Shown here: in pieces, positions 15,259-19,525 of the stretch
Layout: each line of letters begins with the position of its first letter
How positions within the stretch are numbered: position 1 is the first letter of the stretch
From: Methanomassiliicoccales archaeon
Lineage (GTDB): Archaea; Thermoplasmatota; Thermoplasmata; Methanomassiliicoccales; UBA472
Direction: 5' to 3'
Length of the DNA stretch: 64,000 bases
NCBI GenBank assembly: GCA_036504055.1
Contig: DASXVU010000030.1
Coordinates: forward strand, 62,001 to 126,000
Notes under the pieces: model-generated
What the model was told of the DNA's origin: nothing
Seen by the model: the letters and a program-made list of their open reading frames with translations, nothing else
Database searches by the model: none
Made by a program: the position numbers and the translations under genes

Positions 15259-15552
15259 TCAATTATAGAAGATCGAATCGGGCTCTTTCTTCAGACGGTC
15301 GTCCTCGTGCTTGTAGTCGAGGACGTCGATTATCAGCACCGTCATGGACGGGATGATGCGGAGGATTCCGTCAAGATCCTTGTCTTCGGAGTATAGCTTG
15401 ATGCACACCCCGGAGTCCTGTCCGAACTGGACATATCCCATGAACTCACCAACGGAGGTGAACTGTTCTTCCTTCCCGCCCCTGCTGATGATGCGGTATT
15501 TGCTACCCTTGGTCAGTTTGGTTGGATACTTCTCCTCTTCCATGCTGCTCAC
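15259..15552 (-). CDS. Small beta-barrel protein, Lsm-like appearance
   Basis: This 97-residue protein starts with GTG at 15552, which overlaps the TGA of the upstream regulator; an ATG at 15543 is three codons in. The middle (GSKYRIISRGGKEEQFTSVGEFMGYVQFGQDSGVCIKLY) followed by GILRIIPSMTVLIIDVLD has alternating beta strands and a final IP-x-x-x-I-x-x-ID strand, reminiscent of Sm/Lsm-type small barrels. That fold suggestion is inference from strand pattern only. It sits between a winged-helix regulator and elp3 with overlapping or nearly touching genes, so co-expression is likely. Confidence 0.7.
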   Translation of the reverse strand: MSSMEEEKYPTKLTKGSKYRIISRGGKEEQFTSVGEFMGYVQFGQDSGVCIKLYSEDKDLDGILRIIPSMTVLIIDVLDYKHEDDRLKKEPDSIFYN

Positions 15553-16079
15553 TCCTTATTGGCCAAATCCTGCATGTGATCGACCGTCTGGCGGTAGTTC
15601 TTCATCGCCATCTCGACGTTAGCCTCGGTGAACGACCAGGCCTTAGAAAGATCGCCGTAACGGACGCGATATCCTTTCTTCTTGCCCCCATCCCTTTCCG
15701 CGTCCACCTCCTCCAGTATGTCCATGGACTTGAGCTTGTTGAGATGACGGTAGATCGTCGGTTTGGTGGTCCTCAGCTCAACGGCCATCTCCTCCACCAG
15801 CCAGACCCTTTTCATGTTTCTCAAGAAGCAATCCGTGAACATCTTGTAAGGAACGCTGTCCTGTACATTGGAGGCCTCCGTCTTGGGATCGTAACCTTTC
15901 GGTATGTAGCCGATCTGCTGCAGGAACTGCAGTGCTACCTCGTCCAGGTTCCTGATGGGCGTCAGCGGGGTGTTGCTGACGATGCTGAGCTCGAACATGT
16001 CAATCAGGCAATGATTGCTATTAAGCTTATGAATTTTATTGTAAAGACCCTGCCTATTTTTTTTACTATCTAATTCCAT
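15549..16079 (-). CDS. Winged helix-turn-helix regulator
   Basis: The 176-residue protein contains a winged HTH around residues 95-150: WLVEEMAVELRTTKPTIYRHLNKLKSMDILEEVDAERDGGKKKGYRVRY, where TTKPTIYRHLNKL is the recognition helix and the Gly/Lys-rich turn is the wing. The N-terminal 85 residues have no recognised domain. A second ATG at 15998 (MFELSIVSNTP) could be the true start, because the first 27 residues are more AT-rich and basic. It is divergent from the ABC importer operon at 16247, and inverted repeats lie in the shared promoter region, so it may control itself and the importer. Confidence 0.75.
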   Translation of the reverse strand: MELDSKKNRQGLYNKIHKLNSNHCLIDMFELSIVSNTPLTPIRNLDEVALQFLQQIGYIPKGYDPKTEASNVQDSVPYKMFTDCFLRNMKRVWLVEEMAVELRTTKPTIYRHLNKLKSMDILEEVDAERDGGKKKGYRVRYGDLSKAWSFTEANVEMAMKNYRQTVDHMQDLANKE

Positions 16080-16246: not shown

Positions 16247-17350
16247 ATGGTCAAAAAAACAACTGCAATATTAACAGTGATCGTAGCGATACTGGCAGTA
16301 ACGGCAGTGGTCGCGGTGGCGGTCCTGAGCAGCAATTCGAACTCTACTAATGCCAAGGTGATCTATTGGACGCCTGTGCCACCAGTGAACCAAAAGGCCG
16401 CAATCGCCAATGGTTCCATTTCTGCTGGAGTGAGCTGGGAGCCGTTCATAGACGATTCGGTGATCGCCGGAACAGGACATGTGCTGATATGGTCCAATCA
16501 GATCTGGGATAGCCATCCATGTTGCGTATTGGCAGTCTCATCATCCTTCGCCCAGAACAACCCGGATGCGGTTGCGAGAGTCCTCCGAGCTGACATGGAT
16601 GCCAATGCCTGGCTTCTTGATGCCGCGGCTCATCCAGGTACGGTCAACTATACTTTATTGGTCAAACTCGGAGCTCAGTTCAGCGGAAGGTCGACGGACG
16701 TTGTCAATGGTTCGCTGCTGCACACCAAATATGACACTCAGGTGACCAATGCTGACATGAGCTGGTTCGTTAACTTCACCAAGGACTTCCAGTCCCTGAA
16801 CCAGTACTCGGTGAACATCACTTCGAAGGGATATACGGGCCCTGCCGACTACGTCAACCAACTGGTCGACCAGTCGTACTATGCCCAGGCCCTTCTGGTC
16901 CAGCCGGTCGACCACATCGTGGCCAACGTTAGCATGGGATATCTGACCGGAGACCTTCACCAGTTCGCCCGATTGGTGGCTTCCAATGCCACGGTGGGCG
17001 GCGGAGTGAGCCTGTTCGAGAAGTATGGCGTACACGTGACGAGCCCCAACCTGGCCGGCTATGGTGCCGGACCAGCCGAGATGGACGCGTTCGCTGCCGG
17101 ATCGATCAACGTGGGATACCTGGGTGCTCCCCCGGTGCTCCTGAAGGTCATCAACTCTGGCGTGAACGTGAAGATCGTTGGGCTGGTCAACTCCGAGGGG
17201 TCGGCGATCGTCGGTAGCAACAGCATCACCAATTTCTCCCAGCTGCAGGGCAAGATAGTAGGGACTCCGGGACCTGGTTCGATCCAGCACCTGCTCTTCA
17301 TATACTATGCTCAGCAACAGGGATATGTAGTGAAGCTTGCGGGTACCTGA
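16247..17350 (+). CDS. NMT1/SsuA-like ABC substrate-binding protein with permuted lobes
   Basis: The 367-residue protein has a membrane anchor or signal at residues 5-28 and then all segments of an NMT1/SsuA-type binding protein, but in rotated order. Motifs that normally lie in the C-terminal half come first: ANGSISAGVSWEPF (53-67), IWDSHPCCVLAVS (86-98) and NPDAVARVLRAD. Motifs that normally start the mature protein come last: GYLTGDLHQFARLVAS (about 230), AEMDAFAAGSINVGYLGAPPVLLK (about 280-300) and LQGKIVGTPGPGSIQHLL (about 334-350). The stop follows VVKLAGT, which in the usual order would lead into the KVIYWTPVPPV at residue 38. Ligand is unknown; relatives bind sulfonates, nitrate or thiamine precursors. 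Permease and ATPase genes follow. Confidence 0.88.
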   Translation: MVKKTTAILTVIVAILAVTAVVAVAVLSSNSNSTNAKVIYWTPVPPVNQKAAIANGSISAGVSWEPFIDDSVIAGTGHVLIWSNQIWDSHPCCVLAVSSSFAQNNPDAVARVLRADMDANAWLLDAAAHPGTVNYTLLVKLGAQFSGRSTDVVNGSLLHTKYDTQVTNADMSWFVNFTKDFQSLNQYSVNITSKGYTGPADYVNQLVDQSYYAQALLVQPVDHIVANVSMGYLTGDLHQFARLVASNATVGGGVSLFEKYGVHVTSPNLAGYGAGPAEMDAFAAGSINVGYLGAPPVLLKVINSGVNVKIVGLVNSEGSAIVGSNSITNFSQLQGKIVGTPGPGSIQHLLFIYYAQQQGYVVKLAGT

Positions 17351-17413
17351 AGACCACCTTAAACCTCTTAACAAACCTTTTTATTTCCTAAACCACTGCA
17401 AGGGTGAATGCCC

Positions 17414-18235
17414 ATGACCAAGGCTTTTGACAAGATCAAAAAGGAATTCGGGAAAAGCTTTGGCAAGAAGAACCTCAAATCGCTTTTCTTCGTGACCGTA
17501 TCGCTGGTGGGTTTCGTATTGATCTGGTGGATTGCTGCTTCACTCTACCACATTGATTACTTCCCCACCCCGGACAAGGTCTACAATGCGTTCATAAACA
17601 GTTTCACCCACGACGACCCGTTCCTCGGGATCAACATGTGGCAGAACATCTCTGCCTCGCTCCAAAGGTTCGCAACCGGATTCCTGTTGGCTTTCCTACT
17701 TGCAGTCCCGCTGGGTCTTCTCATGGGCTCGTCGAGGATATTGGACTCCTTGTTGAAACCTATCATCGAGCTGTTCCGCCCCATCCCACCGATCGCCTGG
17801 GTGCCCATATTCCTAATCGCATTGGGATTTTTCTGGGGGCCTGTCTTCATCATCTTTATCGGCGTCTTCTTCCCCCTTACTTCATCCGTCTATTTTGGGG
17901 TGAAGAGCGTTGATCCAGTTCTTCTCGATGCCGCCAGAACACAGGGTGCCGGTCCCGCGGCGATATTCTCCAAGGTGGTCCTTCCGTCAACCGTGCCTCA
18001 CATCATGACAGGCATACGAATCGGGCTTGGAATCGGATGGATGTGCATCGTAGCAGCGGAGATGATTGGGGCCGTGGGCGGGGGCGTCGGATACTATCTC
18101 ACGGTCCAGCAGCTGGTCGGCAACTATCCGGCACTTTACGGCGGGATAGTCGTCATCGCTCTGCTTGGCTTGGCCACCACCGGACTAAGCGGTTACGTGG
18201 AAAAGCGTCTCGCGCAAAGGATGGGGACCAAATGA
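17414..18235 (+). CDS. ABC importer permease, SsuC/TauC type
   Basis: The 273-residue membrane protein has about six helices and the inner-membrane permease (BPD_transp_1) loop LLDAARTQGAGPAAIFSKVVLPSTVPHIMTGIRIGLGIGW, which contains the EAA-like coupling helix that contacts the ATPase. The start at 17414 is chosen because GGTGA lies six bases upstream of it; an ATG at 17408 would add two residues with no spacing. It belongs to the SBP-permease-ATPase operon, with its stop overlapping the ATPase start as ATGA. Substrate class (sulfonate, nitrate or pyrimidine) cannot be resolved from the permease. Confidence 0.92.
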   Translation: MTKAFDKIKKEFGKSFGKKNLKSLFFVTVSLVGFVLIWWIAASLYHIDYFPTPDKVYNAFINSFTHDDPFLGINMWQNISASLQRFATGFLLAFLLAVPLGLLMGSSRILDSLLKPIIELFRPIPPIAWVPIFLIALGFFWGPVFIIFIGVFFPLTSSVYFGVKSVDPVLLDAARTQGAGPAAIFSKVVLPSTVPHIMTGIRIGLGIGWMCIVAAEMIGAVGGGVGYYLTVQQLVGNYPALYGGIVVIALLGLATTGLSGYVEKRLAQRMGTK

Positions 18236-19002
18236 TACTAAGCATCAAGAACCTCCATAAGGTCTTCCCCAAAGAGGAAGGGGAGATGGTTGCCATCGAT
18301 GACTTCAACCTAGATGTCGAAGAAGGCGAGTTCATCTGCATCCTTGGACCCTCAGGTTGCGGCAAGACCACCCTGCTTCGTATGATCGCTGGATTGGAAA
18401 CCCCGACATCTGGGGACCTCCTACTGAACGGCAAGCCGATAACCAAACCCGGTTCAGACCGCGGTATGGTCTTCCAGGAATTCGCCTTATATCCCTGGAG
18501 GAACGTCCGAAAGAACATCGAGTTTGGACTGGAGATCAAGAAGGTCAGTCCGCTCGAGAGGGAGAAGATCTCCCAGCGGTTCATCGACCTGGTCGGCCTG
18601 AACGGTTTCGAAAAATATCACCCATACCAGCTTTCGGGTGGTATGAAGCAGAGGGTGGGAATTGCCAGGGCGCTGGCGAACGAGCCTACCATCCTTCTCA
18701 TGGACGAGCCGTTCGGGGCGCTGGACGCACAGACAAGGAACCTCATGCAGAAGGAACTGCTCCGTATCTGGAAAGAGACCAAGAAGACAGTCGTCTTCAT
18801 CACCCACTCGGTCGACGAAGCGGTCTATCTTGCGGACAGAATCGTCGTCCTAACAACCCGTCCCAGTAAGATCAAGGAGATATTCGAGATAAAGACCGAA
18901 AAGCCGAGGGACCGGGCCGACATCGACTTCGCCAGCCTCAGAAAGCGCATCCTGGCCGAATTGGAACAGGAAGTGGTCTGCGCTCCGAAGATCCTGGCCT
19001 AG
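18232..19002 (+). CDS. ABC importer ATPase, SsuB/TauB type
   Basis: The 256-residue ATPase has Walker A GPSGCGKTT at 39-47, Q-loop MVFQEFALYPWRNV, signature LSGGMKQRVGIARALA and Walker B LLMDEPFGALD with the switch His in FITHSVDEAVYLADR. This full set is that of the NitT/TauT family of import ATPases. The start at 18232 overlaps the permease stop by four bases. It ends two bases from the convergent regulator gene, so the operon is bounded here. Confidence 0.93.
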   Translation: MILSIKNLHKVFPKEEGEMVAIDDFNLDVEEGEFICILGPSGCGKTTLLRMIAGLETPTSGDLLLNGKPITKPGSDRGMVFQEFALYPWRNVRKNIEFGLEIKKVSPLEREKISQRFIDLVGLNGFEKYHPYQLSGGMKQRVGIARALANEPTILLMDEPFGALDAQTRNLMQKELLRIWKETKKTVVFITHSVDEAVYLADRIVVLTTRPSKIKEIFEIKTEKPRDRADIDFASLRKRILAELEQEVVCAPKILA

Positions 19003-19003
19003 T

Positions 19004-19525
19004 CTAGAGCACCTTCGACGCGGCGACCTCTATCGCCCGCCTAACGCTGTCCCTCGGAATGACCACACTGACCGGTATTGTCAATATCTGTTCGATGGTC
19101 GGGGCGATGATCGGGGCGCAGACAATGGCCAATGCCCCGTCCCGTTCCGCTTTGACGGCTGCGATGATAGCATCTTCCATCGTCAGGGCCGGGTACTCCT
19201 TCACCTTGACGTTCCTTTCTCCGACCTGGATTATGCGTTCTTCGATCTTCACCAGGACGGTCTTGGTGGCGATGACAGCGATGAACTCTCCTCCAGGGTA
19301 GGTGTCCATCTTCCGGACCCCTTTGATCACCGCTCGTACCGTACGCAAATTAGGTTCGCGCTGCTCCTGCAGGATCTTGTACACGGTTGACGGCGATAGA
19401 CCGGTCTTCTCGCAGAACTCCGGCACGCTGACCTTGAGATCTTGTTCCAGGATCTTCCTCAGGGCTTCCCTGAAACCCTCCTCGCTTCTGAGGATACCGC
19501 CGACCAGCTCGTCCACCATCGACAT
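19004..19525 (-). CDS. HTH regulator with C-terminal ligand-type domain
   Basis: The 173-residue protein has an XRE/lambda-type HTH around residues 30-75 (SVPEFCEKTGLSPSTVYKILQEQREPNLRTVRAVIKGV), followed by an alpha/beta domain (EFIAVIATKTVLVKIEERIIQV ... PALTMEDAIIAAVKAERDGALAIVCAPIIAPTIEQILTIPVSVVIP) that looks like a small-molecule or partner-binding module. It resembles the predicted transcriptional regulators found in many methanogens. Its ATG directly follows the TAA of the thioredoxin reductase-like gene, so both form one operon, and a redox-linked role is possible. The effector is unknown. Confidence 0.75.
   Translation of the reverse strand: MSMVDELVGGILRSEEGFREALRKILEQDLKVSVPEFCEKTGLSPSTVYKILQEQREPNLRTVRAVIKGVRKMDTYPGGEFIAVIATKTVLVKIEERIIQVGERNVKVKEYPALTMEDAIIAAVKAERDGALAIVCAPIIAPTIEQILTIPVSVVIPRDSVRRAIEVAASKVL

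Follow-up and report, generated by a model that had tools for sequence, protein, structure and literature searches.

The gene at positions 16247 to 17350 (forward strand, ATG start) of the window, the 64,000-nucleotide stretch of Methanomassiliicoccales DNA analysed as a whole, encodes a circularly permuted NMT1/SsuA-like (type II) ABC substrate-binding protein of 367 residues. Matches to the Pfam profile PF13379, a scan of all rotations, homologues and an AlphaFold2 (AF2) model leave practically no doubt that the permutation is real. Relatives of this protein are found in four cyclic orders, and the reading towards which we lean, by a modest margin over even chances, is one of 'wandering termini': in Thermoplasmatota, the phylum of the Thermoplasmata lineage, the ends of the protein would have moved repeatedly, giving the four orders, leaving tandem-fusion intermediates that are still extant, producing one of the orders twice and returning at least once, without a change of locus, to the canonical order.

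The canonical chain can be divided into four segments, N1-N2-C1-C2, and in the order of the window protein, called type A, these become C1-C2-N1-N2. The chain opens with a hydrophobic helix and spacer (residues 1–36; 16247 to 16354), a putative signal or membrane anchor preceding the old second lobe. The helix is kept in the alignment and occupies the first 28 residues of the model (helix 3–28), which bears out the earlier suggestion that a new signal anchor had been attached ahead of the old C-lobe. Segment HMM mapping then places, all on the forward strand, C1 (residues 38–78; 16358 to 16480), running from the strand VIYW to the WEPF helix and corresponding to the middle of the canonical chain; C2 (residues 80–225; 16484 to 16921), with the HPCCV motif and the C-terminal helices of the canonical protein; N1 (residues 229–304; 16931 to 17158), from GYLxGDLHQ to GYLGAPP, the N terminus of the canonical protein; and N2 (residues 308–363; 17168 to 17335), with NSEGSAI and TPGPGSIQH, which forms the new C-terminal end. 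The two old termini meet at about residues 216–228 (16892 to 16930), a joint marked by a short inter-segment gap (median of 6 residues in type A proteins) and by a block pLDDT of 96–98 over approximately residues 201–230. In the translated frame GVSWEPF occupies residues 61–67, HPCCVLAVS 90–98, GYLTGDLHQ 231–239 and GYLGAPPV 290–297, and the chain finishes with VVKLAGT, all as placed in the preliminary description.

Profile comparisons reveal the reversed order directly. The NMT1_2 profile (PF13379) matches the native chain with 76.3 bits, above its gathering cut-off of 24.7, but does so in two stretches; the best aligns residues 37–130 with profile positions 152–245 of 252, so that the C-terminal half of the profile comes first in the chain. 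TIGR01728 likewise matches as two reversed stretches. The preliminary description had proposed exactly this reversal, C-lobe before N-lobe, and had suggested linear and rotated alignment to PF13379 as a check: rotation merges the two stretches into one, with 86.7 bits. The same happens with TIGR01728, which scores 94.1 bits against the native sequence and 104.7 bits, in a single stretch, against the rotated one. A 299-position profile of 17 relatives with canonical order, drawn from bacteria, Asgard, Bathyarchaeota and others, matches the native chain in two pieces of 117.6 and 94.8 bits, covering profile positions 5–131 and 127–297. A scan of all rotations against this profile has its optimum at a new start around residues 213–227, and the rotated chain (by about 190 residues, starting near residue 219) gives a single match of 222 bits over positions 5–297. 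As judged from these alignments, the window protein has the residues of the canonical domain in rotated order, and the whole domain is covered. Assignment to a subfamily is another matter: the protein stays under every NCBIfam cut-off, rotation included, missing that of the aliphatic sulfonate binding subfamily TIGR01728 (163.5) and that of the SaoX model NF040735 (300, with 37.5 bits native and 44.1 rotated). Its Pfam, NCBIfam and significant PDB matches are all type II NMT1/SsuA/NrtA-like.

The AF2 model, computed from 32 type A sequences, is a confident bilobed fold (pLDDT 92.8, pTM 0.86) that includes the joint of the old termini. It places the new termini in a loop between neighbouring strands of lobe 2 (residues 360–364 and 37–43). 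The preliminary description had put the break in a single linker; a break in one loop is what the model contains, but the new ends lie between two strands of lobe 2 and not between the lobes, and the half described as the 'N-lobe' also takes in the first part of lobe 2. Apart from these points the reading as a circular permutation is essentially right, given the rotation scan, the colinear homologues and the predicted fold. A Foldseek search with the type A model returned weak sequential matches to solved structures (best TMq 0.34, with OpuAC ranked first) and no solved structure sharing the type A order with good superposition, so that the fold match is based on sequence and model confidence.

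Homologues in the same order are plentiful. Matches to the window protein occur in 58 of 61 related genomes, many of them full-length, colinear and about 40–55% identical, and colinear full-length homologues at 29–55% identity are carried by about 50 Thermoplasmatota genomes, those of Methanomassiliicoccales among them. The named homologue records come from these groups and are mostly metagenome assemblies. Once identical proteins are removed, 52 distinct proteins have the type A order; four genomes from elsewhere in the phylum, beyond the class, add a further five, which brings the number to about 57. A search of contigs with the single protein as query gave no match, and matches were obtained with an alignment-based query. 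The orthologue search proposed in the preliminary description has thus yielded dozens of independent colinear homologues. Among 32 type A proteins 27 columns are invariant and both halves are represented in them (GDxHQ, G..PP, N..GSA, PG..SIQ, WEP and HPCCV). One type A gene, in assembly DTU008 (L042:2590-3769, reverse strand), has the same sequence as L087 and is frame-shifted, being either a pseudogene or a sequencing error. The window's own genome also encodes, on contig C48 (L002), a second NMT1-type binding protein, in canonical order and with its own ABC ATPase, which is not orthologous to the window protein.

When the four segment HMMs (window residues as given above) were mapped onto the open reading frames of all fetched loci, two further permuted orders were found. 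Type B, N2-C1-C2-N1, is cut in lobe 1 and occurs in family f2 of Methanomassiliicoccales, one-contig genomes included; one family member, L084, is recorded as Methanomethylophilaceae. Type C, C2-N1-N2-C1, is cut after the WEP helix and is represented by seven proteins, one of them from the one-contig genome G058. Patterns lacking C1 (N2-C2-N1 and C2-N1-N2), where this short segment falls below the HMM threshold, were filed as B and C; in L149 a WEAQ stretch is recognisable by eye at the C terminus. Canonical-order homologues include L045, L046, L047, L160, L191 and proteins of many bacteria and archaea. The motifs GDxHQ, G.PP, N..GS, P....QH, WE and H.CC are present in every order, canonical, A, B and C, which identifies the chains as rotations of one protein and not as different families. 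The type B model is of lower confidence (pLDDT 77.6), and Foldseek matches it to SsuA, CmpA and NrtA at TMq 0.43–0.51, consistent with the long run in canonical order that type B retains.

Canonical and type A genes share a single locus. In many genomes the type A gene is flanked on one side by Elp3 and a divergent HTH gene and on the other by a permease, an ATPase, an XRE-type gene and thioredoxin reductase. In the window these neighbours include a putative HTH regulator with no Pfam match (15549 to 16079, reverse strand), which is a conserved companion of the transporter in 35 loci, and, beyond the ATPase, an HTH regulator of the XRE type (19004 to 19525, reverse strand), conserved as a neighbour in 29. 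Elp3 and the putative HTH regulator are separated by an open reading frame of 97 residues (15259 to 15552, reverse strand), with no Pfam match, and similar small frames recur there in related loci. The canonical L046, from the one-contig genome G006 of the window's family, and the canonical L045 occupy the same syntenic position with the same neighbours. One gene slot in Methanomassiliicoccales holds both the canonical and the type A order. The existence of canonical-order homologues over the same residues, named in the preliminary description as an argument against permutation, demonstrates it instead, because the one slot holds both orders.

How the orders arose is suggested by proteins in which the domain is doubled. 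L027 (337-2529, forward strand) encodes an A-A tandem in one frame of 731 residues, with copies 52% identical; the first copy has no HPCC, GDLHQ or SIQH residues, which suggests, from its residues, that one half no longer binds. The B-B tandems L151–L153 are 770–793 residues long, and in L152 the halves are 86% identical. By segment order, a stretch from inside A-A has the arrangement of B, and one from inside B-B has that of C, as a model of duplication, in-frame fusion and trimming predicts. The type A order would have originated when the gene was duplicated in tandem and fused in frame, after which the outer ends of the fused duplicate would have been lost, leaving an internal, rotated copy. 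Repeated use of this route would lead from canonical to A, from A to B and from B to C, and probably A has also gone back to canonical. No canonical-canonical fusion, the intermediate predicted for A, was found among the mapped loci. We consider duplication, fusion and trimming the likely route to the permuted orders, in a succession of events reconstructed by comparison.

Trees were computed with IQ-TREE from sequences rotated to the canonical order, one with 71 rows and one with 70 rows and more taxa. In the 71-row tree the Thermoplasmatota proteins form one clade (support 100/97). Type B has a single origin nested in A (support 100/99, and 98/94 in the other tree), with the type A protein L035 as its sister. 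Type C is nested twice within B, and the AU test rejects a single origin for it (p 3.2e-5). Canonical rows from Thermoplasmatota are interspersed with those of type A, and the test also rejects one clade for the canonical order (p = 0.010), which points to either a return to canonical order or several origins of A. Adding five members of the phylum leaves the picture unchanged except that L186 (type A), on a long branch, joins the canonical outgroup. The minimum number of changes of order is six for the 71-row tree and eight for the 70-row tree.

The competing account that holds up best dispenses with repeated re-permutation in place and proposes one ancient permutation, combined with horizontal transfer of A, B, C and canonical genes as separate lineages and with their loss. 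The canonical proteins of Thermoplasmatota could be imported copies in such a history, and the trees have weak branches and long rows in places; however, the nesting of B in A and of C twice in B is strongly supported, the canonical L045–L047 lie within the Thermoplasmatota clade, and L045 and L046 sit at the conserved locus. Transfer and loss are an unlikely substitute for wandering termini. Much less probable is an apparent permutation made by joining a C-half and an N-half from two different binding-protein parents. Duplicated copies do exist and diverge, as the 52% identity within L027 indicates, yet the halves of the window protein fit the same canonical profile in complementary fashion with nearly no overlap (5–131 and 127–297 of 299), the rotated chain outscores the summed pieces, and canonical proteins occupying the same gene slot match each half. 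With recent tandem duplicates as parents, such a fusion is simply the duplication route.

The window protein is very probably a working, if permuted, ABC binding protein. It would be the extracellular, membrane-anchored component of an NMT1/SsuA-type importer, with its old C and N termini connected by a short linker, its new termini in a loop of lobe 2 and a new anchor at the N terminus. Ligand would be bound between the lobes and handed to the adjacent permease as by an ordinary binding protein; the H-P-C-C and GDLHQ motifs, one in each lobe, plausibly line the cleft. As the preliminary description had it, the operon continues with an ABC permease (BPD_transp_1; 17408 to 18235, forward strand), nearest among NCBIfam models to TauC, SaoP and NtrB, and an ABC ATPase (ABC_tran; 18232 to 19002, forward strand), nearest to SaoA, NtrCD and TauB, none of these models reaching its cut-off. 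The start of the ATPase (MILSIKNL) was chosen from sequence and its start codon overlaps the permease stop. From the likeness of these partners to TauC/SaoP/NtrB permeases and to SaoA/NtrCD/TauB ATPases, small-molecule import can be expected on established knowledge, and the importer very probably works. A permease gene follows in 81 loci and an ATPase gene in 78, and the motif positions are strongly conserved, which makes it most improbable that the permuted protein has become a sensor or a dead relic without a part in transport. The A-A copy with missing motif residues would fit such a fate, as would some type A copies, in proteins of about 900 residues, that share one reading frame with fibronectin III or with fn3/PKD/CARDB/beta-helix domains (L039:1672-4437 and L040:1-2700, both reverse strand), which are possibly surface proteins reusing the permuted domain.

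As for the substrate, our tentative guess is a small compound that is anionic or contains sulfur. The window has genes for thioredoxin and its reductase near the transporter, a Desulfobacterales relative has DsrE, rhodanese and OsmC genes among the neighbours, and OsmC occurs at another Thermoplasmata locus; these neighbours at some loci hint at sulfur or redox chemistry and serve as a lead only. RACo-like corrinoid-activator genes directly adjoin type B transporters at L048 (251-1897, forward strand) and L049, a lead to a possible link with methyl-compound metabolism. The wider surroundings of two type B loci and one type C locus indicate no clear substrate. Coenzyme M, a sulfonate, is not a compelling candidate, given that its biosynthesis genes have been reported in three Methanomassiliicoccales (Borrel et al. 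2014, PMC4153887). An organometal or SAO-like role, considered on account of the HPCC motif and a weak likeness to SaoX, SaoA and SaoP, was rejected, with scores far under the cut-offs and an empty literature search.

That the permuted gene is an artefact, with tandem canonical genes wrongly joined in assembly as the preliminary description had cautioned, is refuted for the family as a whole: the window's genome is split over 49 contigs and some relatives do carry tandem copies of the binding-protein gene, but the roughly 57 distinct type A proteins come from many genomes with intact frames and an identical break, and one-contig assemblies contain type A (G084, G115 and G122) as well as B, B-B and C proteins (G030, G187 and G058).

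In most cases natural permutation is deduced by comparing two distant proteins, and the path between them is lost. Here the starting point, three permuted products and tandem-fused candidate intermediates all survive in archaea related to one another, some of them at a single syntenic locus, which makes both the duplication-fusion-trimming model and the reversibility of permutation directly testable. The natural break points also mark positions at which new ends are tolerated in a two-lobed sensor protein, which is of use in biosensor design. Mis-annotation of these proteins is likely, since domain profiles match them split or in part and the type C protein compared with NCBIfam had no matches at all.

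Natural permutation of ABC binding proteins is itself established. TpMglB-2 (Tp0684) of Treponema pallidum is a natural circular permutant, proposed as 'Type Ic / Cluster Bc', with an N-terminal tether, a two-lobed crystal structure and glucose binding accompanied by conformational change (PMC4990184). It resembles the window protein in being a naturally permuted ABC binding protein, but it is bacterial, has the type I sugar-binding fold and represents one permutation, whereas the archaeal protein is of the type II NMT1/SsuA kind, with matches that are all type II and outside the type I (Cluster B) sugar-binding sequence family, and belongs to a set that has three break points and includes canonical orthologues in the same gene slot. 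Permutation between the glycine-betaine proteins OpuAC and ProX was found by structure comparison with CPSARST, together with molybdate-binding proteins and CysB (PMC2395249). This too is permutation among binding proteins, and OpuAC is also the best structural match of the type A model; the family and substrate are different, the permutants are less than 24% identical and share a single break, and the parts of that account consulted report no tandem-fusion relatives or shared locus, unlike the case described here. SsuA/TauA/NrtA/SaoX-type proteins (TIGR01728, TIGR01729, NF040735; PDB 2x26, 2g29) are homologous in sequence and have similar operon partners, but they keep the canonical order, while the window protein is permuted and bears the GDLHQ plus HPCCV signature. 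A search confined to open-access papers found no permuted SsuA-type proteins. The permuted GTPases cpRAS and YlqF offer one fold in more than one permuted order (PMC2430557); they are intracellular and scattered in distribution, and a chain of tandem intermediates such as the one here is not stated in the portion of that source consulted. What is new is the family and the organisms, the three break points in one lineage, the canonical orthologues in the same slot and the tandem-fused relatives, and a single family permuted more than once, with candidate intermediates at hand, appears to be new as well.
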